Made by a program: the position numbers and the translations under genes. A stretch of DNA of 64,000 bases from Apostichopus japonicus (lineage: Eukaryota; Echinodermata; Holothuroidea; Aspidochirotida; Stichopodidae): positions 5,145,001-5,209,000 of the forward strand of contig NC_092579.1 of NCBI RefSeq assembly GCF_037975245.1, read 5' to 3'. The notes below the pieces were generated by a model. It did no database searches and was not told the origin of the DNA. It was given only the letters and a program-made list of their open reading frames with translations. How positions within the stretch are numbered: position 1 is the first letter of the stretch; every line of letters starts with the position of its first letter. This document shows, piece by piece, positions 25,583 to 61,790 of this stretch.

Positions 25583-25583
25583 A

Positions 25584-31279: not shown

Positions 31280-32075
31280 TAATTGTGCGAACAATGCTTT
31301 CAGAATTTGACGTAAATTACCTTTCACCAATACCAACAACAACAGAGCATTGTCAATTACCACACAGCTATTGCGGAGACTGTAGCGTGGTGTGAAACCA
31401 ATTACCTTTTTATTAACAGCTCCAAAACCAAGGAATTAATTGTCGATTTCCGTTCAGTTCAGATGCATGATCCAGTTATAATTAATGATAGTGAGGTTGA
31501 GGTTGTGTCAGATTTTAAATATTTAGGACTCATATTTAATCATACTCTCACTTGGGACTCTCATATAGGCTCAACACTTGCGAAAGTAAAGCAGCGGCTA
31601 TATTGTATTTATAGGTTGGGAGGATTTGGTCTAGAATATGAGAAACAGCTTTGGCTCTTCCGTTCCATGGTGCTTTCACTCATGGTCTATTGTGCTCCTG
31701 TGTGGCTCTCTTCCTGTTTCAAGACTCAACTCAATTTGATTAACAGACATTTCAGAAAGTATTATTCTATAGATGATCAGTACATTGAAGAAATTGTACT
31801 TCATTATGTAAGAGGGATTTTGGCTGATCCTGACCATCCTCTCCATAAGTATTACACCACTCCACGTAGGTTGTATACCCTACCTCGTATGCGTACTGAA
31901 CGCTTTAGACATTCTTTTTTACCGAGGAGTATAAAGCTATTGAACTGTCATATAACTAGATGATATTTTTATCATATTTTTGTATATATATTTTGCATAT
32001 TTTTAAGCTGCGGAATCCATTTTATTATATCTTCATTTTATGATTGATATCAATAAATTTTACTTTACTTTACAA
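31280..32075 (+). mobile_element. 5'-truncated LINE, reverse-transcriptase C-terminal region and 3' tail
   Basis: A frame open from about 31370 to 31963 reads ETVAWCETNYLFINSSKTKE, LIVDFRSV, EVEVVSDFKYLGLIFNHTLT, KQRLYCIYRLGGFG, VYCAPVWL and PRRLYTLPRMRTERFRHSFL. These are the standard blocks after the catalytic core of Jockey/CR1/L2-class reverse transcriptases: W(C)xxNxLxxNxxKTKE, FKYLG, the thumb, and the RFRxSFxPxxIxLLN ending. The catalytic YADD block and everything upstream are missing. The 3' end shows aataaattttactttactttac, a short tandem tail usual for this class. Inactive copy, within the 3' part of the DED-coiled-coil locus on the opposite strand. Confidence 0.85.
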
Positions 32076-32524
32076 CCCCAAACCAGTTCTATATAAGGGG
32101 AACCTACATACCAAATATGAAATGTACCACAGTTATCCTTCTGAAGTTTACAAACAAATGTTTACAGCGTTTACAAACGTTTACAAACAAATGTCACATA
32201 CACACACATAATACACACGCCATCACCATCGCTTAGATTCCTTCTGCCTTCGGCAAGGTCAAATAGATTTAACCTGTTTCCATGATACTCCTTGATTTAT
32301 TTACACCTCTGGCGAGCTAACTTGACTTTAATATCTTAACAAAATTGACAGTTTGACAATACATCCTACACTACTTAAATTGATTCAAGTCACCCCCCCC
32401 CCCCGGATACTTGAAAAGCTGCACATGGGACTATGTAAGGATACACAGACTTTACATAATGAAACACAATAATGTCTGGAAATTTATTACAAGCAGCAGC
32501 AATGATCTTTTCATTGTTACCTAC

Positions 32525-34978: not shown

Positions 34979-36869
34979 GAGGTTACCAAAAGTTAGGATG
35001 GCACTCTATATCAAAAGGACAACGAACAGAAAATCAAATAAATATACTGGTGGTAGCAGACTATAAAATAGATTGAGGCATTGAAACAGCAACACATTCA
35101 AAAGGAGGGATTTAAATTAATATGAAAGTGTGAATAATGTGGTTGTGATTTACTTTAATTACAGTATTATTTATATTCTGATAAAATAAAAGTATTAAAA
35201 GTGAACAATTGGTTTGATTGATTTTTAAGACTATACATACCACATTCTTCTATACATGAAGCTGTATCAGGCATATTATTGTTGATTGAATCTTGATGCC
35301 ACCACCTTATAATTATAGTTTAATGGGCTTAACAAGTTATTCAACAAATTTAACCAAAAGATACTACCTTGCAACCCATGTTTGTGTGGGAATGTGATCA
35401 TGGACATAGAACTACTTAAAGTGTCTTCTATTCTGGGCAATGTAGGTGGTCAAAAACACAGCTAAAAGTTACATGTGCTGCAGCTCAAATGCTTGAAGAA
35501 TCAAAGTCCATATATATGCACTGTGAGTCTTTTCAAGATTGGTGGATACACTAAATCGTATAGTGCAGCTACTGCACTACGAGCTACTCACAGCTTCATG
35601 ACAAAGAATTCATGTGAAACATTTAATTATTGAGACTATGTGCAGTTATCAACTATAATGCTAAACCAAGTTTCCTGGGTCACTTAACTTGGTTATTTAG
35701 TAGTATATGGTGTGGACAAATGACATGTATAAAAAAGCCTCTTACTGTACAGGAAGACCATTATTCTTACACTGGTTGACATGTGGTAATGCTTTCTCGT
35801 GCATGGGTAGCAATGATCAGGGAGTTCCATAACAACTCCCTGCAATGATCATGTTAAATCCATGTGCATATCAATTGCATACATTACACTGCGTGCTTGG
35901 TGACAGCTAATGAGTGGGGATCTTCACTGCAGTTAATTAGTGTATTGGGTATTTAGAAAATTAAGCAGGATATTGTGTATCATTACTTACACAAAGTGAT
36001 GTCTATAATCGTTACTGTCACAAACTTACCAGAATTGACTGCAGTAATATATACATTACTTTCTTAGTTTTCAAACAAAGAAATCAACATAATTTTCAAA
36101 ACAGTTAATATTTGCCTCATTTTTCCTGCTTATTCCCCATATGACCTACATTATGAGTGTAGTACAGCTAAATTGTACCTAATGAGCATTGTCAGGAATT
36201 AATTCAAAATCTGTTTCTTATTGTTACTTATAAGGACTACATTACACTGTGCATTCTTCATAATGGAAATCATAGGCCATCAGTGAAATGAACCATTTGA
36301 AGAGAACCGACAAGAAGACTCTCAACTGATTCGATACAATTTATTCTCCTCAGAAGTACTGAAGATGATTTCAATGGCTTTGCAAATTTTGCAGCCTTTA
36401 CTATGTTGACAGTGTGAAAATAGTACCACAAGGCTAAGGTCACATTTTCCCCTTCTTTTTCTGCTTTTTTACTAATTTGGACCAAAATAAACCACCCCTA
36501 CATCCCAAAATAGAAGCAACCTTGTGTCATACCATTTTATCAAGACTTAAATACTGTGATCAAATCAAGGTATCATCATTTGCTATACATGGATGCACTA
36601 ACTAGTGCAAAACTAATCACTATGGCCTAAAATAAGATAAAACATATTGCCCCAAATTTTTCTTGAATTTTATCTCATTACAAGGAAAATTGCACCTGTT
36701 GTGTACTTAACAATAGTTTGCATTGATTTTTGTCAAATTTGAATATTTTAGCAGACTTTGACAGCCAATATTAATGACAAAGGAACTACACTTTTTTAGT
36801 CTGAGCTGTTACACTATGGACCATTCATCTTGCATCAATTTGCAAAGTTTTGACCTAGAATAGAAATCA
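34979..36869. other. Upstream region of the DED-coiled-coil gene
   Basis: Probably includes the 5' untranslated region and promoter, but I see no defined TATA box or upstream exon. No other gene is supported. Confidence 0.35.
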
Positions 36870-37670
36870 TTGCCTAAAAAATAGCACTTATATTTATTTT
36901 ATCTTTTCCAGCACTTAAGTGCAACAAGATTGTAATGGCCTAAATTTTTCATAAAATATTGTGCTTACTTTTCCTTCTTAACAAACAAGTTATAGTTGTG
37001 TTCTTAATAAACTTCCGCATCCACTAATACCAAGTTAGCAGCTCGTAAGATCAGAAAATAAGAAGAAATATTTTCCAAATTTTGTGTGCTGCTCTAATAT
37101 TGGAAAGTGCTACAAGCTTCCAATGGCCAAAATTTTTCATAACAATTTGCTCTTACTTTTCCTCCATTTTGATCTCCCTCTGAACAAACAAGTAATAGAT
37201 GTGTTTTTAATGAAATTCTGCATTCACTAATACCAAATTTGTAGAAATTAGCAGCTCGTAAGCTCAGAAAATAAGAAGAAATATTTTCCAAAGTTTGTGT
37301 GTTGCTTTAATATTGGAAAGTGCTACAAGCTTCCAATGGCCTAAATTTTTCATAAAAATTTGCCCCTACTTTTCCACCATTTTGATCTCCCTCTGAACAA
37401 ACAAGTAATAGTTGTGTTCTTAATAAAATTCCGCATTCACTGATACCAAATTTGTAGAAATTAGCAGCTTGTAAGCTCAGAAAATAAGAAGAAATATTTT
37501 CCAAATTTTGTGTGTTGCTCTAATATTGGAAAGTGCAACAAGCATCCAATGGCCTAAACTTTTCATAAAAGTTTGCCCTTACTTTTCCACCATTTTGATC
37601 TCCCTCTGAACAAACAAGTAATAGTTGTGTTCTTTATAAAATTCCGCATTCACTAGAAACAATATTGTCT
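36870..37670. repeat. Tandem array of a 213 bp unit, about four copies
   Basis: The landmark aatggcc recurs at 36933, 37122, 37335 and 37548 (189, 213, 213 bp). Shared blocks are tattggaaagtgctacaagc, ttttgatctccctctgaac and agctcagaaaataagaag. The near-identical small minus-strand ORFs at 37094-37291 and 37307-37504 are consequences of the array. Confidence 0.9.
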
Positions 37671-38039
37671 ACATTTGAAGCTATGAAGACTGAGAAAATA
37701 AGGAAAACCAATTTTACTTTTACATTGACAGAACAAATCACTTCCATGACAACCTTCCCAAAACCAACATATCCCAAGGAAAACAAGAGCCCAAGGGCAC
37801 TGTGGTTCCTTGCTTGGGGTATATGACAATACACATAATATTATCAAGCAAGATTGGGCTCAAATAGTCCAAGTAATTGTGGTCCTACATGTTCCCATAA
37901 AGTAACCAACACTATAGCCAACACTTTTGTGATCACAAAATGTGATCGGATTTTGGATCAAAAGGCACTTTTGAGATCTAAATATGGCGTCGAAAAAGGT
38001 AAGAAATATAAGAGACCTACAAGCGTGTCAACAGATATG

Positions 38040-40270
38040 ATAACATTGGTGACCTCAGATGACATGACCTTTAAGTTTCAAAATGTTCCACCACCCCGTT
38101 CACAACTTGTCCCAAAATATCAACCATGTCACACCTTGGCATTGAGATTTAATTGCATTAAATTAAAAAAAATAACTTTGAACTTGTATACATAACTTCA
38201 CACACAAAGGTCACCCGAAGGTCAACCAATTGACATTTTTGATCGGTGAGACCTAAATATCTGAGCATGACTGTAAAAATTCGAACATTTTTTCTTTGCC
38301 CATTTTCTCCCCCCAAAATACTACTTTTTTAACATTAGCTGACCTTTGGTGACGTTGGACCACATGACCGTTAAGTTTGAAAATATTCCCCTATACCATT
38401 TGCAACTTGTCCAAAAAAATAAACCTTGTCACACCTTGGCACTGGGAGTTATTGCATTAAATGTGTGAAAATTAACTTTGACCTCATATAACTTCGCACA
38501 CGAAGGTCACATGGGGGTCAACCCATTGACATTTATGATCAGAAGGTACCTTTAACATCTGAAAATAGCATCGAAACTGTAAAAATCCACAAAACACGAA
38601 AAGATCACCAGAGGTCAAATTGAGGTCAAGGGTCACCCAGATGCGGGTCGACAATTGGATTACATTGAAGCAACTCCCAACCCTAACGGACAATTTGTTC
38701 TCAAGTTATCGCAAAAATACTAGTTTTTTATCATTAATTGACCTTTGGTGACCTTGTATCACATGACCGTTAAGTTTGAAAATATTCCCCTATACCATTT
38801 GCAACTACTCCAAAAATATCAACCTTGTCACAACTTGGAACTGGGAGTTATTGCATTAAATGTGTGAAAATTAACTTTGACCTCATATAACTTCGCACAC
38901 GAAGGTCACATGGGGGTCAACCTATTGACATTTATGATCAGAAGGTACCTTTGACATCTGAAAATAGCATCGAAACTGTAAAAATCCACAAAACACGAAA
39001 AGGTCACCAGAGGTCAAATTGAGGTCACGGGTCACCCAGATGCGGGTCGACAATTGGATTACATTGAAGCAACTCCCAACCCTAACGGACAATTTGTTCT
39101 CAAGTTACCGCAAAAATACTAGTTTTTTATCATTAATTGACCTTTGGTGACCTCGGATCACATGACCCTTATGTTTGAAAATATTCCCCTATACCATTTG
39201 CAACTTGTCTCAAAATATCAACTGTGTAACACCTTGGCACTGGGAGTTATTACACTAAATGTCTGAAAATTAACTTTGACCTCATATAACTTAACATACA
39301 AAGGTCACCTTGGGTCAACTTATTGACATTTTTGATTGATGAGACCTAAATTAGAGCATCAAACTATACAAATTCAAACTTTTTTTCTTTGCCCATTTTC
39401 TGCCCCCAAAATACTAGTTTTTTAACATTAATTGACCTTTGGTGACCTCGGATCATATGACCGTTAAGTTTGAAAATATTCCCCTATACCATTTGCAACT
39501 TGTCCAAAAATATAAACCATGTCACACCTTGGAACTGGGAGTTGTTGCATTAAATGTCTGAAAATTAACTTTGACCTCGTATACTGTAACTTCGCACACG
39601 AAGGTCACACGGGTGTCAACCAATTGACATTTTTGATCGGAAGGTACCTTTGATATCCAAATCTAGCATCAAAACCAAACAATTCCTTCTTTGCTCGTTT
39701 CCTCCCAAAATAAGCACATTTTTTCTAATGTGACCTTTGACCTTTTGACCTTGGTTTCAGATGTAGTTTAATCTCCTGATTCCAAAAAACAAAACGACAA
39801 GTCTGTACAACCATCCTAACTCCGACCGAAAAACTTTGACCCCATATAACTTCGCACATAAAGGTCACACAGGGTCAACCCATTGACATTTATGATCAGA
39901 AGGTACCTTTGACATCTGAAAATAGCATCAAAACTGTAAAAATCCCCCAAAACACGTCAAGGTCACCAGAGGTCAAATTGAGGTCAAGGGTCACCCAGAT
40001 GCGGGTCGACAATTGGATAACATTGAAGCAACTCCCAACCCTAACGGACATTTCGTTCTCAAGTTATCGCAAAAATACTAGTTTTTTATCATTAATTGAC
40101 CTTTGGTGACCTTGGATCACATGACCGTTTAGTTTGAAAATGCTCCCCTAACCAGTTCACAACTTGTCCCAAAATATCAATCTTGTCACACATTGGCACT
40201 GGGAGTTATTGCAGTTTTAATATTTTCGGTTTTTGGACCATAACTGACCTTTGGTGACCTTTGTGGGCAC
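38040..40270. repeat. Tandem array of a ~399 bp AGGTCA/TGACCT-rich unit
   Basis: The landmark tgacctttggtgac occurs at 38340, 38739 and 39138 (399 bp steps), then 39433, 40097 and 40245 in rearranged spacing. Recurrent blocks are gaaaatattcccctatacca, cttcgcacacgaaggtcaca, gatgcgggtcgacaattgga and gcaactcccaaccctaacgg. No coding potential is conserved between copies. It lies between the two divergent DED genes. Confidence 0.9.
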
Positions 40271-40868
40271 CAGAAACAATAGGGCACACCTTCTCCATAT
40301 GGCGGATCTATAGTCCAAGTTTGGCCTCAATCCAACATTCCGTTATTGAGATAGAGCGTACCCAAGCAAGTGTCACAGACACACACACACACACATACAT
40401 ACATACATGTTTGTGTTTCATTCCAACCGAGGACCCTATTGTATTTTCCTTTGTTCAAATCCACGTACCCTAACCTTAACAATACCCCATACTATAGAAT
40501 TCTTCCGAGGACGTGGTGATTCTTTAGAAATCACAACCGAGGACCTGAAATTCTTTTGTTCAAGTCCTCGGTCGGATAGAAAAACAAACGCACCCACACA
40601 CACACACACACAAACTTGACTGTATAGGTTAATAGGAATTAAATTTATTCAGATTCCACAGAAATCATATCATTTTCCGTTATTGAACAGATTTAAAGAA
40701 ATGTATTTTATTTCTATATATAAATACATAGAAAACAATCTAACAATCAAGGTGATAAATTGGAAAATGTGATCTCATCCATTATTTTATAATCGGTTTT
40801 ATCAGTTGGTTTGTTGTGTTGAGTGAGATCCTGAACTATATTTTTGGTTACTTTTATTTATTTTTCAG
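40271..40868. other. Region just upstream of the first DED exon found
   Basis: 40400-40500 is an inverted copy of sequence at about 27350-27440 (ggttagggtacgtggattt core), and a CA microsatellite lies at 40380-40400. A 5' exon of the downstream gene must lie before 40869, since that exon starts in phase 1, but I could not identify it. Confidence 0.4.
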
Positions 40869-41192
40869 CTGATTACGGCAGATTAATGGTCAACGTTGCC
40901 CAAGATCTTACTCTAGACAGCACTCTGAAATTAGCAACTCTGTTCCGTCTACCACCAGCAGAAACTGATATGCTACGCCGGGTTTCCCTGATAGAGACAC
41001 CAGGAATCACTCTGATTAACTTCATGAAGACAAGAAACATCATCAATATGTATGATGTCACTAACCTACAGAAGGGTTTGGTTTATATTCAGCTAACCCG
41101 AACAAATGAATATCACTTAGCTCCATATCAGTCTAAAGTTGACCCCTTTCAGTTTGAGGAAAACCAATTACCGCAACTGCTTGACTGGCCTG
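40869..41192 (+). CDS. Exon: DED1
   Basis: Preceded by tttatttatttttcag. Helical death-fold pattern: YGRLMVNVAQDLTLDSTLKL, ATLFRLPPAETDML, TPGITLINFMKTRNIINMYD, VTNLQKGLVYI. The 'L-x-x-F-M-K-T-R-N-I-I' followed by 'V-T-N-L-Q-K-G-L' matches helices 4-5 of a DED. The classical RxDL motif is not evident. It starts in phase 1 and ends in phase 1. Confidence 0.65.
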
Positions 41193-44100
41193 GTAAGAAT
41201 GAATAAAATGATGTAATCAGAATAGATGAAACCAAAATACTACAGTACAATACAAACTCTAGAAATGTGTGTGAGTCGTGTTAATGTTCTGCTTTCAGGC
41301 AATTTGTTATTTTAAACTATTAATTATCACTGTGTATGTATGGTGAAAGTAATTACAAGGCGGATATTTTGACTAAGTATTTGTTGCCATTTGGTTAATT
41401 TCTTCATAGTAAAAGATTGAAAATAGAACAATGCTAAACAAATTAGGTCCCAAGGATTAGCCAATATTTCAAGGATCCATTTAAGCTGTCTGGTCACTCT
41501 CAGACATGATGCTAGATTCTTTTGATACTCCTGTTGTCAAATTCTCTAACAACATAAAACTTGTGTTACATATCTATTACATTTTATATTATGATTACTT
41601 CAATAATACCTCTTTCATAAATCAGTTGCAAGGCTTTTGTATTTTTGAAGAACTTTAGATTAGCAGGGAATGATTAAGTTTATCCATAGTACTTATAGGA
41701 GACAAAAGTCTAAACAAAATGATAAAATTATCCAGTATCACATCGAAAAATGCTACGTTAAATGGGCAAATTAAACACTTAATTATTCTCTGATTAGGAA
41801 TTAATGTAGCTCAGTATGGCAGATTTGGTTTTTAAACATAAAAGCTTCATTTAATGTTGTTTGTGTTTCCATTATTCTATTTTCAGTTGACAATGTCAAA
41901 TTTGACCCTGATAATGAATCAACTCCATCACAAGGTTCTGATGAAAGAGAGGAAGATCATGACCATAGTAAGGAAAGTTTGATGGAGAGAGAAGAGAGAG
42001 AAGTACCAAAACAAAGAAAAGATTCACAAATACTTGAAATGAGGCACTATCATTCATACATTGAACACAGGATCACGTATGAAGGTGGAACTATTACCAT
42101 CATGGGGGTACATCTGACTATTCCTGAAGATGCTTTATCCTCTGATCGTGTAATTGCTGTTAAAGTGATCTATGATCCCACCATACACCTCCCTGGCCCC
42201 TGGCAGTGCTCGTAGGGGCAGAATGACACCTCTGATAAAACTAGAGCCAGAAGGGCTCACCCTCGACAAGCCAGCCCAGCTGACTATTCCTCACTCGGCT
42301 ATTATCCCTGAGCCAGATCGACATGATGTTATAATCTTCACTGGTCTGAAAGACAAAGAAAGTTTAAAAGAAGGTAAAGATGGTAACCAATAAACACTTT
42401 AAAATGCAATTGAATAATGTACCAGGAGAAGTACAATGAGTTATATGCTGAGAATCAGTTCTGTTGAATTTAATATATATCTTATCTAATAGGGTCTTGA
42501 TATATACTTTTTTAGGTTTACTCAATACTATACTTTATATAATATTACTTATTATAGGTGAAATAACTTGGACTGAAGAGAAATCTATTGATTGGAAGCT
42601 AGACCCAGAGAAGATCAGTCTTGATATAACCATCTTGAGCTACGTCTTTGCTAATTTAGTCGACCAAGAAACAGAACAGAAGCATATATTCCGTATTGTT
42701 CCATTTATTGATGGGATACTTGATGCCAATGATGATGTCTTAATAACTGTTTGTTTCTGTAAGGACAGTGATGAAGAGTACAAGGTGAGGATAATCTCTT
42801 GTTACCATGGTGATATATGTAGTAGCTTAGAGGTCAGTTCTGGTTTATATTATGATTTGTAAGTCGAGTACTGGCAATGTTACTTTATTTGTTAAGTGGT
42901 TATCATGCTTCACTGGCAAATTATGAAGTGATTTTGTTAAAGGTGCATTTGTGTGACATAATTTTGTTGATTCATCATAACACATCAAAAAGAAAAATCT
43001 GAAATTTGAAATGAAAATATTTAAACTTGACGTTGACATAAAACATGTGTCTGTCAAAAGTGTTTGTGCTTAAATGAAACTGAGAGTATCCCCATAGTCA
43101 TAGAGGAAGAATGCTGATAGTCTTATAGAGGGCTGATGATGGTATTTTACTAACATTATATTTTATTTCTTCGGTCAAAATGTCATTTTCTTACAAAATA
43201 TGTGGTTCACCTCAAAAATATTCAGATGGCCCAAATTTTTATTGTGGCTCAAAGTGTGCACAACAAGGATTAAGAGGGTTGGGGGCTCTGAAGAAAGAAG
43301 CAACATTGGTAATGTGAGGAAATAATGGAAACAAAGATGATGTTACTTGCTATAGCAGTATTGATCTCTCTGTACAGAGTGAAGGCACAACAAATTGTAT
43401 AATCAACTTTCTGCTTGTTTCTAGCAATTTAAATCTTCATGTCCTTATGTTTTAGTTGCTGTTAGAGGACCACCATCCCAAACTGTGTCTAGGAAACTAT
43501 ACAACATCTCAAATTACCCGGACATTGAGTGACGGCAGAGACCATGTTTCTTACATTGATCTGATCATGTCATCACCCAGTGGTGGTTACCATCTAACGG
43601 GGGAAGAATCAACAAAAGTTTGTAATTGCCAATGCTATTGAAGTTTTTCTTTTAACATTACAAGACTTGTAGTTAAGGATTGGTTACTTAAAGTGGATCA
43701 AATTGTGTAGCAGTTAGAGTGTCGCCCTACAACTATGCGGTTTCTGGTTCAAAATCCCAGCAGGAACCACAATATAGGCAACCTTCTGCTGTGCAGTGTT
43801 GCTAAGCAGGATCTTGTGCGGGTTGGTATTCCTGGTTTGTGAATAAGGAAGTGAAGTTTGGTCCTATGTTCTTTTGTTCGGTATTGCGAATAGCTTCATT
43901 CACCGTGGCTTTACTTTTGGTGTCTATAATTCACCTCCGTTTGTATTGGAGGCAGTGTTCAGTTGTATTGTGGCACTCTCTCAGTTCTTGGATTGGGATG
44001 TTGATTAAATGGATATCCTGAGAGCAGGAATGATTGAGACAATTACATGTCTGCCTAGAAAATCTCTGAACATTCATCAAACAGAATGATTGTAATAAGC

Positions 44101-47100
44101 CGGTGTTTATCCACAATGACACGAATACCCATGGCTTGAATATGTTTCTTTATGGTTCCTACCAATTGGAACAATCTTAACCTAAATAATGTCATGTAGT
44201 TCTTATTACAATAGGAAAGTATAACCTTCACCAGCTGCCCATGAAATGTGAGGATTTGTACATGACAACATGTCTTGGCTCCTTACCAGCTTTTTGTATA
44301 TCTTATATGTCGCACCTTTTCTTTAAATACTTAACAAGCATTCTCATCCTAAGTACATTGATCTTTAATATCTTTTAACCATTAGCATGTAGACATTGAT
44401 TACCTCTGTGCTGCCAGTAGAGTCTCTCGTCAGTTCAGACTTACAAGGGACAAAGATGGAGACACTGGCATGGTTGATGTGAAATTAAAAGTATTTCAAA
44501 ATGAAATGAACCAGACAGCCCTTATCCTCCAATCAAAGGTGAGTAATGTCTGTTGATTATCTTCCAGCTCTCATATGTCTCTTCATTACATCACATTAAG
44601 CAGCATCTTCTCCCATCTGCTAAGTAATGTCCTATCTGTTGGAAGTCTTGCAGCTGTTTGCAGGCTGATTGAATAATGTTAGTGCTGTGGCTGAATTATA
44701 GTTATTTGTTGGCATATTCTCTCATGGATGCTTTTCTTCGTAATATGCATGGTGGATGATAATTTAATTTAATTTAATTACAGCAGTGTTTTATTACTGT
44801 ATTCTTATTTTTCAGTCACTCCAGTGAACCTGGTATTCTTATGTTTCTTATTTTCATCCTGTTTTCCAACTTTTTCCGACTCTTTCGTGTTGTTTCGTAA
44901 ATAAGGAGTGCAGTAACTTGAAAGGCAAATAATTGCTGAAAAAGTGTACATATGACCTGTGTGTTACCACATACACAGGTCAACAGTTATGGGAAACTTA
45001 GGTACTAATGAATATTACATAAATAATAGGTATGCTGTCGTCAGCATTCCTTTTCCTTTTGGGATTTCACACATTTATAATGTGTTGTTCCATGTCTGTT
45101 ACAGCCCTATTTTCTACATTACGTTCCTACTTGAAACCCTAATCATTCACAGGGGTGTGATAGATAGCCTGCATAATTGTATGTTAAATATTCTTACATT
45201 GAAAGTTTTCATTAGTCATATAATTTTTGTTTTTGGGTTTTCCTTCAGGTGAAAGACATTCTCTTATCCCCCGAAAGCCAGAAAATTCTGCACCCAGGTG
45301 AGTTTTTATGTTAAAGTGGAACAAATGGGTGGACTTAGCTAGTTTTAGAAGTCCACCCTGACCTGTATCTAAGTGCAGTTTGAAGAAGAAAAATGAATGC
45401 TCATTATTCGTAGACACACCCCAGGTAAATGTGTATTAGTGGAGATGAAAAAATAAGCACACGCAGAGCACATGGACCCAGGTGAGTGTCTAAGTAAAGG
45501 TGAAGAGGTAATAGCATTTGGGTTTAGCAGTAGACACACCTAAGTGTAATACTTACATCAACTTATTTTATTGGGAAATATTTCATCAACATAATCATTT
45601 TTGATGGAAAGAAATTTAATCATGCTGCTGAACCCTCCAAAAAAAGTCCTATTTGCATGCTTTCATTTTTAGTTAGTATGCTCACTTCCTACTTTGTAGC
45701 TCAAAGAAACCTTGAAGGTGAAGCTGTATACATGAAAAGAATTATGCACAAGACAAGGACTTAAAGTTGAAAGTTGCATGCAAGTTATGGACAGTATACT
45801 TAACAATAGTTTATAACGTGAGGTTGCATACCAGCATTCTCCATGCAGGTTGCATGCTTCATGTGGGCCAGTTGTGTACTTGTGCATGCTAACTGTGAAC
45901 ATTGTTTAAAGTTCAAACCTGCCAATCAATCAGCATGTGCTTCAGTTGCTCGTATTTCTACATGTGATATCTAGTCTTTGCTATATATTTTAGAATTTCA
46001 AGTGGATGTTATGTCCACACTTTCAGGCTTACACAAATATGAAAAGTTGAAAGGAGACATTGCCAAGCTTCTGGATAAACAACATTGGGCAAAGCTAGGC
46101 ATGCTGTTTGGGCTCAGGCCAGCAGAAAATGAAACAATTCAGGAAGCAGCAGAATCTGGAAAGATGCTGATGAAAATTTTGGATGAAAGAGAACTCATCA
46201 TGCCAGACAGAATGATCGGAATGTACGAAGGATTGAAAGCTATTCACTTTGATAAGGTGGCAAGACTGGTGCTGGAGTACATCGATACATCACAGGAGAA
46301 GAATGGAAAGGAAAAAAAAGAGGAAAAAGATGTTAACAAAATGGTTTGTGTTTTGTAAAAACTTGTCAAGACTATGAAACTTTAAGCTTGAATCCAACAA
46401 TGGTTACTTTGCATAACATCAGAATCTTAGAATGGTTTAGTCCTGTATTTTCTGATATGAAATGTATCATTTTTGCTGTCATGCAAGTCACAAAACAGAA
46501 AATTAATTATTACTCCATTACTAAAAAGTCTTCCTATTACTCGTTGTAAAAGAAACAGGGCATTTAACTGATTATTTCTGCTTACATAAAGTTACGTTTG
46601 TAGAGATCAAGTGTACAGCAAGTCTGTGTAGAATATTCACTGAAGCCAAATCAAATGCAGTAATTAGTTTTATATCATTATGAAAGTATGACCAAGTTGT
46701 GAATTTGATAAACAATTTGTAATATTTCAACATTGTTTCAGGTAAAACTTCCAGAGAAACAGGAAGTATTCTCAAAAAGGGAATCAAAATCGTCAGTAAA
46801 TTACACAATTTTGATAGAAGAGGGTTACAAGAGACTGGATGTCCAAAGAGCCTTGAAATTGTCTAATGGAAAACTGGACTTGGGAAGACGGATATTGCTA
46901 CTAGCAAAGGAAGATCATGGTAAAGATACCCTATGTATTCAGCTACATGGGTATTTCTTTTAATATTTCTACCTGATTTACCTCAATGTTGAATCACACT
47001 CTAGGACCACATTTCAAGCCCTTGCTGTTTCAGTGTTTATGGAAGAAAAAGTATTTTTTATTTACTTTAGGAAAATTACTCACAAAATAGCTAGATCATA

Positions 47101-50100
47101 TGAATATGATCTAGATACCTGAAATAAAACTAATTCTTGTTACTTTCAACGAAATATTCTCTTCAAGATCTCTTTTCATCAATCAGGTCAATTATTTCAT
47201 GTCTAATGTTCACTGTCAAAAATTAAAATTATTGTGATTCTTAATTATTTTGTTTCTACAAGTAGAAGTGTTAAAGAGACTATTTTCATTAAATGTGTTG
47301 ATGCATTGAAGTGGCATTGAAGTGGCAAAATCACTTTCCTTTATATATTACTTTTCTCCTCCAGAGAGGCTTCTTTTTTTCCCAGGATCCAATCTTTATA
47401 AGGAGCAGTACTTTGATCAGCATGGAGGAGAGATGTTTATCGCAGGTGTTATTCTCCTTGTACCAGCTGGGGCATTACACACTGGAAGGATTGTTAGTCT
47501 GTGGGTTTCTACGGAACCTGCCATTAATGGACCTTTCGCAAAGAAGAGTCTAAGATTGACTCCTTTTGTGAAATTTGGTCCAGAAAGCCTTACCTTTCAC
47601 AAGCCTGTCACCTTGATTATTCCACACTGTGCTTTTAATCAAGCTGACCAGACGGGTCTTGATGTTTACTCTGGTGTATTACAAACAGGTGTGTTTCTGT
47701 TTCTTTTGCGTTGTGTTTATTAGTCCATTGATCATTATATTTAGTTACTTAAATTTGTTGTATCAACAGAGGTATGTATATGAGTAAGTGTGTTTGTATG
47801 TCACCCCTAATGTACTGTTTATGCTTGCTTCACTGTATGGCTGACCACTTGTACAACTGCTTGCAGATATAACAAACTCCTACTTTTGGAAAATGCCGTA
47901 CTGTATCAACACTATTAGATTCCTGCATAACTGCAAAAGTAAAGCTGGGATGAAAGTCACACTTGATATGTGAAACCACATTAGTACAAGAATGCTATAT
48001 TGGCAATAAAATCACTAAGCCCTCTGGGTGTCTAGTTCTGTGTAATGTAAAAATGATTTTCTCAAGAGGGAGGTATTGTCCCAACAGATTATGTTTGATC
48101 CTTGTTTCAGACGACAGGAATCTATGCAATGGTGATGGCATGTTTGTGTGACACTTGCTTGTATAAACAGGCAAGTGGCAAATTTCATAGTGGATTAACT
48201 TCATACTTGGTATGTGGATATGTATTATGGAGTACAAGAACCCTATTCTATTCTGTGAATATGTAAACATGATATCTCAAAAATTTCATCTTTCTTGAAC
48301 TTCATACTTAGTACGTAGATCTATCTTGGTGAGTGTATGAACCCTAGTCAAAGTCACATGAGGTCAACAGGTGTCAAAATCTGTAAACCTTGTAAAAGTG
48401 ACACTCCTATATTAAAGCTACAATTAATTTGGGAGTTCTCTGCTGCTATGATTTTCTTTTCTGGCTTTCACTTAATTCATAGACAAATTTAAGACAAATT
48501 TAGACAAATTTCACTCATTTGCTCTACATTAGTCTTATAGGTATGTGGAATTTTGAGCACATTTTATGGCACGGAATCACAAAGCTAACAGGTTTTTCAA
48601 GGTACCCTTCTCTTCTCAGTAGTACATTGGCCTGATGACCTCAATCATTTGTTCCACAAAACAAATTTGATCTCAATCATTTGTTTATTTGGGATAAATA
48701 AACAAGATCATTAAAAGAGAAAAAAGCACTTCAAGCTATGGCAAGCTGTAGTTAGCAACACAATTTATCTGGCAACCTTGCAATTGAAAATAAAGATATT
48801 GTACTGTTTTGATGTTCTTTGTATGCAGTGTTGCATTTTCTAACACAAGACTGTCCCTTTAAAATCATCTTTGGTATATTTTAGGATTGGTGTTCTACCT
48901 TTCAACATGTTATAAATACCTATCTAGCAAAACTTTTTTTAAATCTTCAGATAAAATTATCAAATGGAGCCAAGAAAGGAAACACCTCAGCTGCTCTATG
49001 AATAATCAGCACTTTGCAGTTGAAGCAGAAAAACCATGTCTCATTGGTCTTCATGTCCCTTTCATACCCAAGATTTTGAAGCGTGTCTGCGTCTTACCGA
49101 TTGTAAACAGAGTTTCTGAATTGGGGAATCAATTGACAATTCATCTTTGGTTTCATAATGATGACTCACTGGAACGTAAAGTAAGTAGTAGATTTTGTCA
49201 GCTCGAGTGGTATTGCAATTTATCTCACGGAGTCCAGTTATCTGCCTTAATTCAAACTAAATTGATTTCAGAGTAACATAATAATAACAATAATAATGAT
49301 AATCAGCAGTTATTTTTACGACGCTTAAGCAACCACAAAATGGGGAGAAACCACAAGGGCTTATGGATTACACCTTACCCTTCGGATGGCTTCCAACTCA
49401 ATATTTTTACTCAAATTTGGAATCTTTTCAATTTAGAAAGTCATTTCAGATAAGAAAACTGTAGATTGCTCTTGGATGAAAAGTCCACCTTACTATAACC
49501 TGGCCGTTTATCTTATTCGGAAACCTCCAGATTGCTAAGCCTCCAGATTGCTTCAAATGCCATCGCCTTTACCCACTCGGCCACAGCACCAGTGGAATGA
49601 TACAGTTTCAACCTGATGCCCTACAGACACAAACCTCTCTGAAAGTCAAATTGTGATCATATAGCAGGCGCGTATCCAGGATTTTCTAACCCGGGGGGCG
49701 CGAATTACTATCTAAGCGGAGCGCCACCATCGGTTGGGGCGGAGCGTACAAGAAAATTTCTGGTTTTGATACCCCCCACATCACCGGAAATGGCACTTCT
49801 CGGGCTTGAAAATGAGCAACCAGATGTACACTTTTGCCTGAGTACCAAGTATTTCCCAATAGTTTTTTTCCATCCATAACATTTTTGAAGATTGTCACCA
49901 GTCACACATCATGTTCGACCTCATTGCATGTCCTGTGGATCATTGCTTTTGTAAGTGATTCTACGTCACGGCCCACAATATCCGAAAGCCCCACTTTTCA
50001 TGGTTTTAAGCCCATTATTTGTTCAGAATTTGAAAATTCACATTTCTCGTGAATAAAATCACTTCAAAACATACCCATAATGTTGCACAAAATTCAATCT

Positions 50101-53100
50101 ATGGACAACCAGTATAGAAAAACCCCCTTCAACCACTAACAGACAGGTCAAAATTGCACGAGTAGAGGGATGTATGATGAAGAATGTTTGTCAGGAAATT
50201 TTCGAAAATTCAGACACAGTTAATTTATTGGTGTAGAAATATTGCAACCTCTTATAACGGCTATTATAAAACTTGGTTGAAGGAAATGAAAAATAGCAGA
50301 TATTTCCAATATCAGATAACCGAACACTACACACATAGGCGTAGGAGGCGGGGGCTGCAGCCCCCCCCCCCAACCAGATTTTTTCCCCTGAAAATTCGGG
50401 CAATGTGCTGAGAATTTTTCGGGCACCTATACTGAAAGAAAAATTAATAGCAATGGTGTAGCTTAAGGAAATGAATAGTTTAAAAATTATCTCCTTGGTA
50501 ATTCAAATAAAGTTCTAAGCTTGGCCGACTAATTCGCCATTACCACTGTAAAAGAGAGTTTTGACATAATTGGACCTGTATGCTTTTTCTCCATAAGACA
50601 TTTCGTTGTTCACAATAGCATCCGGCGGTATACTGTGCAACTTTCACGGACCGTACGGTACACGATGCGAAGTAATGACCGATGCTTGCTTATACGATAT
50701 TGACATTAACATGTTAAATGCGCGCGAAAAATTTTGGTTATATTTTTCGTGCAAGTCGTTACAGCCCCCAAGTCCAATTGGGCTCCTACTACACACATAG
50801 ACAGTTTTGAGGCTGTTCACCCTGGAACATGCATTTTCATGCTCACTGATATGATGTGATATCTGCTCTTTGCTTTGCCAAGGGAGGGGCGAAGCCTGTA
50901 GGCAAACTATCTAAGCGTAGCGCCACCATGAGTTGGCGCGAAGCGTGCAAGAAAATTTTGGCCGAAAATGCCTCCCAGATCGTTGGAAATGACATTTCCC
51001 AGGCCTTGTAAGTTGCATCTAAGCATTGCCTTTTTTGAAATTACTAGCGATATCATAGAAAAAATTTGCTCGGGTGGGGGGGGGGGTGGTCGCCCCTTCC
51101 CGAAATGCGTCATGTTCCCCGACGACTCGGTTGAGTTCAAGACCAGCCACAGTTGGTTCCATAGCACAATTGTACAATTGTTTAAGGCGTCCATACACAC
51201 ACACGCGTTATGATAGACCATATATAGTATATATATAGATACATTAGTGAAAGAGGAAAAATGGAAACGTCAAAAATGGAGTTGTCGGTGTAAGGGGTAG
51301 GGTGAGGCGCACGTCCCCTCCGTAATCCTCGATCTGTCACTGGCAACCCTGTGTATATTATAGGGGTCAACGCTGTAATTATGACTGTTCCTCTTTCTCT
51401 TCCCGAGGTCTTGGCGTTTATCTTCTACTCCCTCCTGTTCTCCTTTTTCTCTCTTTCTTCTTTTCTTTTCCCTTCCTTCCTCTCCTCCTTTTCTTTTTTT
51501 CCCCCTCCTTTTCCCTTTTTTCTTCTCTTTTTTCTCTCCTCTTTTCCTTACCCGGGGGGCGCGCCCACAACGCCCCCCCCTGGATACGCACCTGTATAGT
51601 CAAGCAAGGGGTCCAGTGAGATTAGCCCGTTCAGGACATTGATGGTTGAAAATAAACTTTGTAGTGGATGAAACACACTGACCAGATGTCCTACGAAAAA
51701 ATATGCATGTTCAATTTTGTTTTCGTCTGTGGTCATTGACAACTGACAACAACTGTTGTAACAGCCACATTTGTGAATACGTACACCTTTTCCAATATTA
51801 GAGTGCATAGTTTATATTTCAGAACATAGGCCATGAGATTATGAATGGTCTTTGATAATGCATCTGGCAGACAATCAATGTGTAATATATATAATAGTAA
51901 TAACAACTCCCTGATTTCAGTTTATATTCCCCAGATTACATGGGGATTCAAGTCACAGGCTTGTGTTGTATAACAGAGCTCAGTGTTTGATAACACATTA
52001 GTTGGTCCAGTTAATCACCCAGACAAGATTTGGACAGAAAATCTGTACAGACAGTTAGACCTCATTGCATTCGATGTATGAAATATTTAAAGTAGCTGTT
52101 TGTTTTACCAAATCATGGCCACACCAGTTTTAATGAGAGGGTCATACTAGGGAGCTGTTATTGCTTCCTGATCATACATGGGACAATGCAATGGGTGCAT
52201 GCATTGATGGTAATGTTTAAATAAACATTAATTATAATGTATTATTGTGTCATTTCTATTTTAACAGAGCCTTATCAATGAAGAAATCTATCAGCAAAAG
52301 GGATCCATAATTCATGATCCTGTGTCTGTTCAACTCCATTCTATGACTTCAACTTTACATGTTAGCACTAACTCCAGTACGTCACAGTGTAACCCAAGAA
52401 GAGTGGTTAGTATTGTCTGTCAAATATTCTTATTTATTTTATGTCAACATGTAGAGAAAGCAGGTAGTTCCTGTTCCACGGGTAATTTGCATTTGTTGGG
52501 AGAATAGTTGTATGCATCTGTTGAGTGGTATGTAATAATGCTAGCATATGTTATTATATTGTAAACTGTTGTTTTGTTTATATCATACATTAAAGGTATG
52601 CTGTATTGGCCCAAATATAGTATATAAGTAAGTAAAATACAGTAATAAGTAGGGTCACCTTTGGACAAAATTCTTAAACTATATTTGTTATCACCCTGGA
52701 GGACATTTACCTCACTGGGACATTCAAACATCTTGTGTGTTCCTTTAGAATGTCTGAGAACAATTTGGAGAGTAAAGACTTCCAGGAGGGTACTTTATGA
52801 CACTTCTAGCAATTATAGCATGCTATAATTTGGGTCCTATACAGACTACTTTTTATTACAAATCAATGTTTCATGTTATATTGAAACTGTTTCTTTCTCA
52901 ATTTGTCATGATACTCAATGAGAGTATCATATAGTACAGTGAAAGTTACCTCGCAGGTTTACATTTATCCATCTGGGTGAAGAGGGGAATTTCAGATCAA
53001 GTGCCTTGCCCAAGGTCACAGATTAAAAATGTGCAGGAATGGAACCTGTAATCCTTAGAATGTCAGCACATTAACTTTAACCACTTCAATGTCAACTTAA

Positions 53101-55420
53101 ATGCCTTAAAGTCTAAAGTTTTATAATATAATAATTAAAGACCTTCTGATTATTCTCCTTCAAAGGATGTTGCAATGGAAACCCTATGGTTAAAGAACAG
53201 ACACAAGATAGAATTCCATCTTCAGTATAAAGGGATCAAAGATACTGTCAATCTGGAAATAGAAGCAAGATATGGGATGTTAAGGTGGAATCTTTTCCAG
53301 CTTAGTATTCAGTTGCAGGTAACTTTATTTTGAATTAATGTTACAGAAAGAAATATTTGAATATGAGGAGAATGTCTGGTTCAGTTAATACTTGGTACTG
53401 TGTTGTAACTACATAGTATGTATATGTTCTTTGCATCAACAATGTTACCTCATTAATATTTATGAGTGGAAAATTGTCCAAAACAGTTTGTAAATACGAT
53501 ATCTTAACAAGCACAAGTTGAATCAATGTTATATTTGGGAGATAGATGCCCCATGATGAGTAGATGTGCCCCATTGTTCTTGGTTCTCATCTCATGAATA
53601 TTAATGAGTGGGCAGGGCTTAACGTGAACTTTGGTTCATACTGGTATGGTCATGCTGGTGCACATAGAGCACATTTTCATGATGTCTCCAACTTCATGTC
53701 ATTAATATTCATCAAATCGCAAGAAATGGCTTTTAACACACGACAAGAACGAAATGTTTCATGATTTCCATACTTGACATATTAGGTTTGTCACACTACA
53801 TTATTCATACAATCAACCGTGTTGTTTTTTGGTTGCATATCATGAATTTTATTCAGTGAACATTAAATTCTTAATCAGATATCTCTGAAGTAGTATGTCT
53901 AATTAGCTTTACACATGTACTTGGATAATATGATGTAAGTATATAGATACATGCTTATGAGATCATAAAATTTGACCTCATTAAAATCCATGTCTTTTCT
54001 GTTTTTATAGTATGTCTCAACATGATAACACATTCCTTTAAATGTTGCAGCATTAGTCACTCATTTGGCTGGGCATAAGTTCATGAATATTAACATGTAT
54101 GGCTTACCACACTATGTATTTCTTTAGACATCAGAACCACTGAACGTTTTCCTTTCTGTTCTATTGAAATCTCTACTCTGTCGGTCTTAGTTGATTAACT
54201 GATCTTCATTATAAAAGTTTGAATGAATATTTTAAAATGCCAGAAAAAACTTATAACCAGCTGTCTTATAGAAAATATACTGTATAAACAGTAAGTCCTA
54301 ATTAGCATATCTTAAAAGTATTAGTGAAACTGCTTCTGGAGACATACTCTTCATTGATAGAGGTGAAATATGCACAAACTAATTTTCTAGGGCAATCATA
54401 AAGCTTTCCTCTGTTTCCTCTTCACAGATTGAAAAGTTACGACACATTGACCAAATCACATCTCCATTCCAGCTCATTCTACCTGAATGTGAGTAATTAA
54501 TTACTTTAGCATGTTAATGCAGCTGAAGATGTTTCATTACAATGTTGCACTCAATACCAGATTTGTAAACTAGAACAGTTTCTTCAATATCAAGTTTTGA
54601 AAATAGCTGATAGTTACATATATTCCACCAGTTGAAATGACAACTACAGCCTGGACTCCTCTTTGCAAAGTAGGATTAGGTGTACACATCTCATATGTAA
54701 GGAATTGTCGGCAGTATGTAAAATGTTGATGTATGAATAGTAAGATTACATGTACACATCTCATATCAAAGGATTGCACCTAACTTGTGTATAAGTATTG
54801 ATGTGTGCTTAGGTGTTAAACATAAGTATTGATACCAAAGCAACACACTTAGACTGAGTATTGATACTGTATTCAAGTCTCATTGCAGTGGAAAACAACA
54901 ATTACTGAAATTCAGCCACCTGCTTTAAATATGCATTCTCAGAGTTAAACCAGATTTCATTTGTAGTCTCATTGAAAGCTTTTACGGTTTATTTTGCCCC
55001 TGAGTGTAAGAAACACATTTATGTTGTCTCACATTGCTGGTATTTTTTTGTTTAAAACAGGATTGGTTTAATTCACTTTATGTAGAGTTGCAATTTACTT
55101 TTTTTTTCAACCTTACAGCCATCATCAAATCTTTTGATCAGCTAAAACAGAACGTATCAGAACATCTTGATGTAGACCAATCTACCCTGCTGGCATATAT
55201 TTTCCAACTTCCTGAAGAAGGAATTACTGATATCAAAAAGCACAAAACACCAGGAACTCTTTTGTTAGAGAAGCTGACCAAAAGTTCACTAATATCTCCC
55301 ACAAATGTCACAAAATTCGAAAATGCCTTAACAGAACAAGGAAATGAAGAATGTGGAAAACTTGTCAGAGATTTTAGATGGGAAAATCCTGTAGTTCAAG
55401 CAACATTGTGCAAACAATAA
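40869..55420 (+). CDS. Tandem-module DED-ZU5-UPA protein, 14 exons (5' end not found)
   Basis: Exons: 40869-41192, 41887-42373, 42558-42784, 43456-43617, 44386-44538, 45249-45297, 45994-46343, 46742-46919, 47386-47688 (or from 47365), 48951-49180, 52268-52405, 53166-53318, 54428-54488, 55119-55420 (TAA). All borders are AG/GT and every junction is phase-compatible, giving roughly 1,040 residues. Order: DED1, acidic linker, ZU5-1, UPA-1 (three exons), short linker, DED2, UBA-like, ZU5-2, UPA-2 (three exons), linker, DED3. Introns after equivalent positions in both modules have the same phase, so an internal duplication of a whole DED-ZU5-UPA unit is inferred. ZU5-UPA-death-fold proteins (UNC5CL, PIDD, UNC5 tails) signal in apoptosis and NF-kB pathways. 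No signal peptide or membrane segment is seen, so a cytosolic adaptor is likely. One frameshift lies in ZU5-1. It could instead be two adjacent genes, split before DED2. Confidence 0.7.
41887..42373 (+). CDS. Exon: acidic linker and ZU5-1, frame broken once
   Basis: Begins after ctattttcag. About 50 residues are Asp/Glu-rich, then ZU5 strands YEGGTITIMGVHLTIPEDAL and, in the next frame (+1), RMTPLIKLEPEGLTLDKPAQ and LTIPHSAIIPE. The exon is 487 nt, one more than phase agreement with its neighbours requires. The first frame stops at 42213-42215. The switch must lie between about 42176 and 42205, a C-rich stretch (gatccc, ctccct, ggcccc). Either a sequencing or assembly indel or a real disabling insertion. 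Confidence 0.7.
42558..44538 (+). CDS. Exons 42558-42784, 43456-43617, 44386-44538: UPA-1
   Basis: Three exons, all phase 0 after the first. GEITWTEEKSIDWKLDPEKI and DANDDVLITVCFCKDSDEEY correspond to the early strands of the UPA domain (the UNC5/PIDD/ankyrin conserved domain next to ZU5). LLLEDHHPKLCLGNYTTSQ and DHVSYIDLIMSSPSGGYHL correspond to the middle strands. DYLCAASRVSRQFRLTRDKD with MVDVKLKVFQNEMNQTALIL corresponds to the last strands. The resemblance is in strand pattern and order to UNC5-type UPA, and identity is low. Confidence 0.6.
43700..43840 (+). repeat. tRNA-derived SINE fragment, intronic
   Basis: Contains a box A-like gtgtagcagttagagtg and a box B-like ggttcaaaatcccag at tRNA spacing, followed by a non-tRNA tail. 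It lies in the UPA-1 intron. Confidence 0.5.
45249..45297 (+). CDS. Exon: short linker between UPA-1 and DED2
   Basis: 49 nt encoding VKDILLSPESQKILHP, ending in phase 1. It is positionally equivalent to 54428-54488 in the second module (61 nt, same phase, IEKLRH...FQLILPE), which supports the module duplication. Confidence 0.55.
45994..46343 (+). CDS. Exon: DED2
   Basis: Death-fold helices KYEKLKGDIAKLLDKQHWAK, LGMLFGLRPAENETIQEA, LMKILDERELIMPDRMIGMY and EGLKAIHFDKVARLVLEYID. The ILDERELIMPDRMIGMYEGL stretch closely follows the DED helix 4-5 consensus (LLEERGLLSxxNLxxLxxLL). A Lys/Glu-rich tail follows. Phase 1 in, phase 0 out. Confidence 0.7.
46742..46919 (+). CDS. Exon: UBA-like domain
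   Basis: After a basic linker, residues TILIEEGYKRLDVQRALKLS and NGKLDLGRRILL follow the ubiquitin-associated domain pattern (xxLxxMGF...xxALrxtxgxxxxAxxxLL), with Gly-Tyr in place of the usual Met-Gly-Phe/Tyr core. UBA domains bind ubiquitin. Its placement between a DED and a ZU5 is unusual. Phase 0 in, phase 1 out. Confidence 0.55.
47386..47688 (+). CDS. Exon: ZU5-2
   Basis: FDQHGGEMFIAGVILLVPAG, RIVSLWVSTEPAINGPF, RLTPFVKFGPESLTFHKPVT and LIIPHCAF give a complete ZU5 domain, including the conserved 'L(T)PxVxxGPxxLxFxKPVxLxIPHC' signature of UNC5 and ankyrins. Two acceptors in the same phase are possible: 47365 (cctccag) or 47386 (tttttttcccag); the latter has the better pyrimidine tract. 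Confidence 0.8.
48951..53318 (+). CDS. Exons 48951-49180, 52268-52405, 53166-53318: UPA-2
   Basis: DKIIKWSQERKHLSCSMNNQ, AEKPCLIGLHVPFIPKILKR and ELGNQLTIHLWFHNDDSLER match the start of UPA. SLINEEIYQQKGSIIHDPVS and DVAMETLWLKNRHKIEFHLQ with WNLFQLSIQLQ match the middle and end. The exon pattern and phases (1-0, 0-0, 0-0) equal those of UPA-1. The 3.1 kb intron after the first exon is swollen by a SINE and a large transposon-like element. Confidence 0.6.
49276..49590 (-). repeat. tRNA-Ser/Leu-derived SINE (minus strand), intronic
   Basis: On the minus strand it starts ggtgctgtggccgagtgggt, continues aaaggcgatggcatttgaag, like a class II tRNA acceptor/D-arm with a TGA-like anticodon region, and ends in an (ATT)n-rich tail at about 49276-49306. 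Box B is degenerate. Confidence 0.6.
49665..51594. mobile_element. Non-autonomous DNA transposon, hAT-like termini, composite interior
   Basis: Ends caggcgcgtatccagg and cctggatacgcacctg are inverted apart from one mismatch. Possible 5 bp duplication tatag; the 8 bp expected for hAT is not found. Inside, two copies about 1.2 kb apart of a ctatctaagcg.agcgccacca block (49710 and 50908) and a cgggggctgcagccccc block (about 50350) suggest nested or duplicated elements. No transposase ORF. Confidence 0.65.
52940..53100 (-). repeat. SINE fragment (minus strand) with conserved-core-like tail
   Basis: Read on the minus strand: gtggttaaagt (box A-like), ggttccattcc (box B-like), then gaccttgggcaaggcacttg and cacccagatggataaatgta. 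The latter two blocks are typical of widespread SINE central/tail domains in marine invertebrates. It lies in the UPA-2 intron. Confidence 0.6.
54428..54488 (+). CDS. Exon: linker between UPA-2 and DED3
   Basis: 61 nt between ttcctcttcacag and t|gtgagtaa, encoding IEKLRHIDQITSPFQLILPE. It ends in phase 1, as does 45249-45297. Confidence 0.55.
55119..55420 (+). CDS. Terminal exon: DED3 with short tail
   Basis: After tttttttttcaaccttacag. Helices IIKSFDQLKQNVSEHLDVDQ, TLLAYIFQLPEEGITDI, TPGTLLLEKLTKSSLISPTN, VTKFENALTEQGNEECGKLV. The TPGxxLLxxL core parallels TPGITLINFM in DED1. It ends WENPVVQATLCKQ then TAA. Confidence 0.7.
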
Positions 55421-55832: not shown

Positions 55833-55973
55833 ATGCCGACCGAAAAATTCACTGATTTCTTCACAAAATTAGAAAAAGCCCTGACAGAGAAAGAAAACGA
55901 AGGATGTGCAAGACTTGTCAGAGATTTCAGAAGAAACAAAACTGTACTTCAAGCAACAATGTGTCAGGAATAG
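55833..55973 (+). pseudogene. 46-codon duplicate of the DED3 C-terminal half
   Basis: Open from ATG 55833 to TAG 55971-55973. It reads FFTKLEKALTEKENEGCARL and VLQATMCQE, aligning with ...KFENALTEQGNEECGKLV... and ...VVQATLCKQ of the terminal exon. The N-terminal helices are missing, and repeat sequence (gtgtgtgtgtatg, about 55739) abuts it upstream. It is a remnant of a tandem last-exon duplication or of a former neighbouring paralogue. Confidence 0.75.
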
Positions 55974-61309: not shown

Positions 61310-61790
61310 CTACTGGAATCGCCCGAAGATGCGGCGTCTGTAATCCGAGGAACCAACGAACTTCTCTGCTAACTCCTCAGGCTTCAACTGGGCTAGAATT
61401 CGCGGTGAATATGGCACACCATCGCATGGTTCAGTCTCTGTTGAGTCATGGTGCTCCGGAGCCATGTCTTCAAACGCCTCAAAGCACTAAAAGATCTCTC
61501 GGCTTCCGTCGAACTGGCGGGGGAGACGGGGAGCAACCGCAAGAGAGCTTCGACTTCACCAAACATATAGCCCGTACCGCTGGATTTATCGACTTGAATA
61601 TTTGTCTATACCCGTCAACCGACGACGACTGGAACTGGCCTCGAAAGAAAGGCAGACTAAGCTTAGGATTGTCGGAGAGCTCAGGGTACCAACTCACGAT
61701 ATCTGGGTGGAATTCTCCATTCACCAACATTGATTGATATTCGATGATATGAATCCTGAGATGTGTAAGCCCTAACAAAATAGAGCCACG
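61310..61790 (-). pseudogene. Decayed hAT transposase, C-terminal dimerisation region
   Basis: Minus-strand frames give, in order, LSLPFFRGQFQSSSVDGYRQ with SINPAVRAIC, then in another frame LRLLPVSPASSTEAERSFSA and LRRLKTWLRSTMTQQRLNHA, then in a third frame LAQLKPEELAEKFVGSSDYR and a stop. The S-T-x-x-E-R-S-F-S-A-L-R-R-L-K-T-W-L-R-S-T-M segment is the hallmark of the hAT dimerisation domain. At least two frameshifts make it inactive. The catalytic core upstream is not visible, because a C/G-rich repeat begins at about 61805. Confidence 0.85.

Follow-up and report, generated by a model that had tools for sequence, protein, structure and literature searches.

What kind of protein is encoded at positions 40869-55420 (plus strand) of a 64,000-nucleotide stretch of the Apostichopus japonicus genome, and is it the product of one gene? 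The whole stretch, called the window here, corresponds to C19:5145001-5209000 in a genome of 671.6 Mb in 35 contigs. An earlier note had proposed a gene at this single locus with 14 exons of agreeing phases, encoding the domain order DED-ZU5-UPA-DED-UBA-ZU5-UPA-DED (DED, death effector domain). Our analysis supports a real gene, which belongs to a family of about 54 copies and is damaged in the window. The predicted architecture of the family is DED-like/coiled coil/DED/ZU5/(UPA?)/DED/UBA-like/ZU5/(UPA?)/DED, in which the query marks denote regions that lie where a UPA domain would be expected. We put the explanation as a whole, proposed mechanism included, at about 0.5.

The exons of the window copy are bounded by GT/AG sites and end in a TAA stop codon at 55418-55420. 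All 13 junctions are phase-compatible, provided that the two sides of a break in exon 2 are each read in their own frame, and 13 of the 14 exons (E1-E14) are open, exon 2 being the exception. The first DED (DED1) is encoded by E1 (40869-41192), which has its acceptor AG and donor GT in 13/13 paralogs with the exon and, compared within the window, resembles the last DED (DED3) with E=1e-4. It is followed by a linker and the first ZU5 domain (ZU5-1) in E2 (41887-42373), by a UPA-position region spread over E3 (42558-42784, open), E4 (43456-43617) and E5 (44386-44538), and by E6 (45249-45297), a short linker exon before DED2 that is 12 bases longer in several copies on C15. DED2 itself lies in E7 (46027-46343) and a UBA-like domain in E8 (46742-46919). 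The second half then continues with ZU5-2 in E9 (47386-47688), a second UPA-position region in E10 (48951-49180), E11 (52268-52405) and E12 (53166-53318), a linker exon, E13 (54428-54488), and finally DED3 with the stop codon in E14 (55119-55420). Homology between the two halves extends over their whole length (blastp E=2e-18), and their exons correspond in size and phase; on these sequence grounds they are an internal duplication. Just 3' of the stop, at 55863-55970 (+), lies a diverged partial copy of the DED3 C-terminus (58% identity, E=3e-10), which also occurs in paralog P17 and is perhaps an old duplicated last exon.

The chain proposed earlier, with its exons, splice sites and phases, therefore stood in large part, and two of its details did not. 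The start of exon 7 had been placed at 45994, where none of the 15 paralogs reached has an AG; the corrected start at 46027 is preceded by AG in 19/19 paralogs and leaves the phase unchanged. Exon 2 is frameshifted, its frame breaking at ~42195-42202. The other frame of this exon is common to 14 of the 15 paralogs with exon 2 aligned, L014 having a different break of its own, and comparison of the window copy with these paralogs gives net deletions of 7 bases in 9/15 and of 10-14 in the others, in-frame indels apart. A micro-intron in place of the frameshift was rejected because ZU5 aligns on both sides of the break without loss and the paralogs keep one frame.

The size of the family follows from a genome-wide search with E7, in which all 139 candidates were scored and 54 matched, two of them with an internal stop; by this count the family has about 54 copies. 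A search with ZU5 gave at least 150 matches (150 scored of 204 candidates), and 69 of the 150 scored lie on C12 and 30 on C15. Around ZU5 matches on C19, C15, C23 and C16 we sampled 20 stretches of 10 kb each and found the gene in 19, the remaining locus (L009) carrying another ZU5 type. Among the 19, E7 and E8 are present throughout and E9 in 18 (none in the L025 stretch), and at 16 loci all exons covered by the 10-kb stretch occur in order. Departures from this plan include L010, with no trace of E1-E4 in the 4.5 kb upstream of a partial E5; L026, in which E5-E6 are unclear and E6 scores no better than E=0.075; and L025, where a second partial E3-E4 at 7029-7310 (minus strand of the stretch) represents a tandem duplication. 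Exon protein identity to the window copy ranges from 65 to 100% and is lower, 48-75%, in L026. Of the paralogs, only P17, P18, P19 and P22 were covered as far as E13 and E14; they also contain E12. The genome also holds a second large ZU5 family (L004, L006-L009 and the C12 cluster) with a different downstream exon, in which Pfam UPA was not found in L006, and a single-frame UNC5-like gene at L001 (742-2874, plus strand), whose ZU5, UPA and Death domains score over the Pfam cut-offs.

All 14 exons show a ratio of nonsynonymous to synonymous substitution (dN/dS) below 1, with values of 0.22-0.79 that are uncorrected for gene conversion (pooled Nei-Gojobori estimates per exon from 28-171 pairs for E1-E11 and 10 pairs for E12-E14, window included, copies with stops excluded). 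In the UPA-position regions the values are 0.38, 0.79 and 0.37 for E3, E4 and E5, and 0.27, 0.35 and 0.49 for E10, E11 and E12; the linker exons have 0.42 over the shared length (E6) and 0.22 (E13), the estimates for E12 and E13 coming from five copies each. Internal stops were found in only 4 of 194 exon copies, namely E2 of the window, E2 of P14, and E10 and E11 of L020. A chance chain of exons was rejected, as the exons, their order, splice sites and selection are all kept in the paralogs.

The internal Met of E1 is absent from 2/14 copies, so E1 is not the gene start, and in P14 and P19 four further exons precede it on the same strand. Their window counterparts lie on the minus strand: DED0, a DED-like exon and the first exon recognised in the family gene (34735-35005; open, 271 nt, phase 0 to 1); CC1, a coiled-coil exon with 14-residue repeats, which in the window is without its conserved acceptor and first residues (33561-34066); CC2, a second coiled-coil exon (33043-33180; 138 nt, phase 0 to 0); and exon X, which links CC2 to DED1 in phase (32525-32609; 85 nt, phase 0 to 1). 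With CC1 running from phase 1 to 0, the four exons match E1, which begins in phase 1, and the chain DED0-CC1-CC2-X-E1 is in phase and stop-free in P14 and P19, the two paralogs read through the join; in P19 (C15:22995500-23019499), E1-E14 are open throughout as well. CC1 is 527 nt long in P19 versus 1454 nt in P14, open in both and with the same phases. For CC2, P19 and P14 share 92% identity over 167 nt, and splice sites occur in three copies; exon X is found in both of these paralogs and on the minus strand of the window. That DED1 might end an earlier ZU5 unit was considered and rejected: in tblastn the best candidate for a third ZU5 farther upstream (E 0.022, at 13.1 kb) contained a stop and was not convincing.

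These 5' exons are cut off from the rest of the window copy by an inversion. Collinearity with P14 runs along the window's minus strand from 37128 to 27217 and continues on the plus strand from 40391 onward; the same switch is seen against P19, and it is this change of strand that identifies an inverted 5' part. The segment inverted relative to the paralogs spans 27217-40391, and its two ends carry a 223-bp inverted repeat of 75% identity. A long 4-bp microsatellite lies beside its left breakpoint (26.6-27.3 kb), and a repeat-rich element at 37780-40408 shares 95% identity across 2644 bp with a region 3' of the P19 gene.

With respect to the individual domains, ZU5 is firmly predicted twice in the gene. 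ZU5-2 exceeds the Pfam cut-off (E=1.5e-11), and a ZU5 profile compared with known structures matched an UNC5B chain at E=2e-7 and also ZO-1. The part of ZU5-1 after the break scores E=0.0036 in the window, below cut-off, and Pfam ZU5 was matched by 6/6 family sequences (best 3.1e-13). The UPA domains named in the earlier note were supported by no profile test. The regions in question fit UPA in position and size, with ~195 residues between ZU5 and DED; against a UPA identity stand the absence of a Pfam UPA match in 6/6 family sequences, E3 likewise giving no UPA profile match, the lack of any match in a profile search of the PDB, and an hhalign probability of 0.2% against a native UNC5-like UPA. 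In hhalign the region also failed to match the second exon of the other ZU5 family. Such comparisons have little power because that second exon itself did not match L001; two native UPA pieces did detect each other by BLASTP.

The ends of the ZU5 domains are conserved, reading IFTG in ZU5-1 in 9/9 paralogs with an open exon 2 and VYSG in ZU5-2 in 19/19 copies, window included. An SF/S or HF/S motif is given as the cleavage site of CARD8, NLRP1 and PIDD, and threonine is named as a possible nucleophile in such cleavage (PMC3210808). Neither motif is present at either ZU5 end and self-cleavage is therefore not predicted, while cleavage at IF/T in ZU5-1 is possible from the sequence.

For the DEDs, the structure model of DED3 shows the six-helix DED fold and aligns best to the DED2 of cFLIP and viral FLIP. 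A profile of 14 family sequences matched cFLIP DED2 at E=7.2e-6 and viral FLIP at 0.18; with DED0 left out, cFLIP gave E=0.008 and the sole matches up to E=1. Weak matches to PF01335 were found in 6/14 family members (best E 0.0019), and a paralog version of E7 reached 0.0037 with Pfam DED, below cut-off. In addition, the DED0 profile aligned to that of DED1-3 with an hhalign probability of 89.9% (E=1.7e-6, 85 columns). Several observations weigh on the other side. The family DEDs stay below the Pfam cut-off, at best 17.9 bits versus 35.9, and none of the 45 PF01335 matches in the genome (107/107 candidates scored) lies at a family gene. E1 alone had no Pfam match, and the best Foldseek E-value for the DED3 model was 0.064. 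DEDs usually carry an RxDL charge motif in helix 6; it is not evident here, where by eye the family consensus lekv stands opposite RIDL of cFLIP. DED0 alone found no DED in the PDB, and its Pfam match to WHD_CHMP7 (0.0012-0.0015) beats that to DED (0.028-0.087), both below cut-off. Because the DED3 structure model and the match of DED0 to DED1-3 stand despite the weaker re-checks with a profile lacking DED0 and with DED0 alone, we keep the DED reading: judged by their sequences, DED1 and DED2 are likely DEDs, and so, with less support, is DED0, which we call DED-like. A C-terminal death domain (DD) is not present, a DED occupying its place.

The assignment of E8 to the UBA fold is likely but marginal in score. 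Its profile matched CBL at E=0.018-0.037 over ~40 residues and CBL-B at 0.74-1, and one of seven sequences gave Pfam UBA_DHX29 at 0.09. The unrelated CmeR scored nearly as well as CBL (0.056-0.068), however, and a single-sequence AlphaFold model of the exon alone had a mean confidence (pLDDT) of 51 and contained strands, both of which count against a UBA domain. Of the order proposed in the earlier note, the paralogs examined share the leading DED, both ZU5-containing halves, the middle and last DEDs and the UBA-like insert, as parts of one predicted gene; UPA is left unsupported.

The arrangement of two ZU5-UPA-like units, several DEDs and a rod suggests by analogy an autoinhibited platform for DED assembly, a tentative reading to which we give slightly less than even odds; the multivalent DED scaffold proposed earlier is plausible on the predicted domain content. 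In UNC5b the ZU5-UPA unit holds the death domain in check, and here each ZU5/UPA-like unit could likewise restrain its neighboring DED. The coiled-coil rod of variable length would make the protein oligomerise, and the UBA-like domain might read ubiquitin or aid dimerisation. Activation would then free the DEDs, and these could draw in further DED proteins, for instance caspase-8- or FADD-like partners, to build a signalling assembly. Elsewhere in the genome 32 DEDs exceed the Pfam cut-off and are possible partners. A dense cluster of typical DEDs at C16:10.2-11.1 Mb holds 24 of the 45 PF01335 matches and could supply such partners.

A rival reading is that the exons represent more than one gene. 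The halves are duplicates, translation of E7 can continue past its donor for a few codons before a stop, and that donor (GTTTGT) is not of the strongest form, all of which would suit two adjacent genes, one ending after DED2 and the next beginning at the UBA-like E8. The readthrough differs in length and sequence among copies, however, and no in-frame Met lies upstream of E8 at any of the 20 loci. Moreover, the E7 donor GT and the E8 acceptor AG are each kept in 18/18 paralogs reached and the E8 donor GT in 19/19, the E7-E8 gap measures 271-425 bp in 19 loci (2479 bp in L012), and the dN/dS of E8 is 0.37. The conserved E7-E8-E9 link and the dN/dS values below 1 make two separate genes very improbable; they speak for one transcript through E7-E8-E9, and E1-E14 almost certainly form one predicted gene. 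A similar doubt attaches to the 5' exons, as DED0 and the coiled coil might form a gene of their own that is just a 5' neighbour. Exons before DED0 were not recognised and the start exon of the gene was not found, the join was read in two paralogs only, and 7/54 E7 copies have no DED0 in place. Among these seven, only the window copy has a nearby DED0 on the opposite strand (11.3 kb). On the other hand, DED0 has 53 matches genome-wide (130/130 candidates scored, a few weak or fragments), and for 47/54 E7 copies a DED0 of their own lies within 40 kb on the same strand, 8.4-27.2 kb upstream, which amounts to one-to-one co-occurrence. The phases of CC2 and X fit E1 in P14 and P19 as well as in the inverted part of the window, and E1 has no conserved start codon. 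We consider a separate upstream gene improbable and the DED0-coiled coil part, in all likelihood, to belong to the E1-E14 gene.

Two further alternatives concern the window copy and the function of the family. The inversion, the frameshift in exon 2 and the damaged CC1 count against an intact gene in the window and point to a pseudogene. They could instead be partly artificial, the inversion and the frameshift reflecting assembly or sequencing errors in an otherwise intact gene: the breakpoints lie at repeats and at the long 4-bp microsatellite, and every exon of E1-E14 except E2 is open. Against such errors stand the number of separate lesions, three with the lost CC1 acceptor, and the private breaks that other copies carry too (P14 in E2, L020 in E10 and E11). 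An intact gene is accordingly the less likely option, and the window copy is probably a damaged, rearranged pseudogene; the interest of the finding rests on the family rather than on this copy. As to function, the main rival of the assembly platform is a FLIP-like inhibitor, whose DEDs would be devoid of the usual binding motif and, in the manner of cFLIP and viral FLIP, would titrate DED assemblies or cap them. The best profile and fold matches of the DEDs are indeed to cFLIP DED2 and viral FLIP, no caspase domain occurs among the exons found, and the RxDL motif is lacking to the eye. Still, several DEDs on an oligomerising rod fit clustering better than capping, and closeness to FLIP may reflect fold only, so that we regard an inhibitor as doubtful and continue to prefer the platform.

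A bolder and rather improbable extension of the platform is that the ~54 clustered genes form a class of sensors for innate immunity or cell death that has not been described before, each protein being a pre-assembled switch for DED filaments. In it, two DEDs gated by ZU5 would be joined to two more DEDs, a domain that reads ubiquitin and a rod that oligomerises and varies in length between copies. If true, one such switch would take over roles that in vertebrates are divided among receptor, adaptor and FLIP. Apart from this extension, proteins with two ZU5 units and several DEDs would carry the partnering of ZU5-UPA, known for death domains and CARDs, over to DED signalling, and their clustering in dozens of copies would suggest that the host animal has a large repertoire for immunity or cell death. 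With its duplicated halves, common exon phases and coiled-coil rod of variable length, the family is also a good example of how modular proteins evolve.

Parts of this architecture recall known systems. As in UNC5 and UNC5CL, a ZU5 domain is followed by ~195 residues and a death-fold domain; here that domain is a DED rather than a DD, there are two such units per protein, UPA is undetected, and further DEDs, a coiled coil and a UBA-like domain are added. PIDD1 has more than one ZU5 plus a death-fold domain, and ankyrin-B reportedly has the order ZU5-ZU5-UPA-DD. The family shares with PIDD1 and the ankyrins the presence of more than one ZU5 in a protein with a death-fold domain, but its ZU5s are non-adjacent, each with its own downstream region and DED, and no leucine-rich or ankyrin repeats occur in the exons found. 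The tandem-DED proteins cFLIP, viral FLIP and caspase-8 have the same fold, and cFLIP DED2 is the profile match of the family, whereas the family DEDs are separated by other domains and are accompanied by no caspase domain in those exons. E8 aligns with the CBL UBA over ~40 residues at E=0.018, a marginal score, and no other CBL domain was found in the family exons. In NLRP1 and CARD8 a ZU5-type unit (FIIND, that is ZU5-UPA) likewise precedes a death-fold effector in an immune setting (PMC3210808); the family differs in having DED rather than CARD and no SF/S or HF/S motif. MACC1/SH3BP4 resemble the family as ZU5 proteins with more than one death-fold domain, MACC1 having two death domains (PMC11585957); these are not DEDs, and MACC1 combines SH3 with a single ZU5. 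Our searches of open-licence papers showed no such architecture and, among the papers listed, 0 occurrences of ZU5-DED, DED-ZU5 or UPA-DED; a description elsewhere is possible. Death-fold combinations such as DED-NACHT are known from amphioxus and sea urchin (PMC2575513), a precedent that lessens the surprise of finding a new one in an invertebrate.

Two minor features lie elsewhere in the window. At 25548-26474 (+) are two open stretches that look beta-propeller/NHL-like by eye, with no Pfam match at 0.01 and Beta_propel at 0.068 for the second. At 61396-61605 (-) lies the C-terminal dimerisation region of a hAT transposase (Pfam E=1.6e-5).

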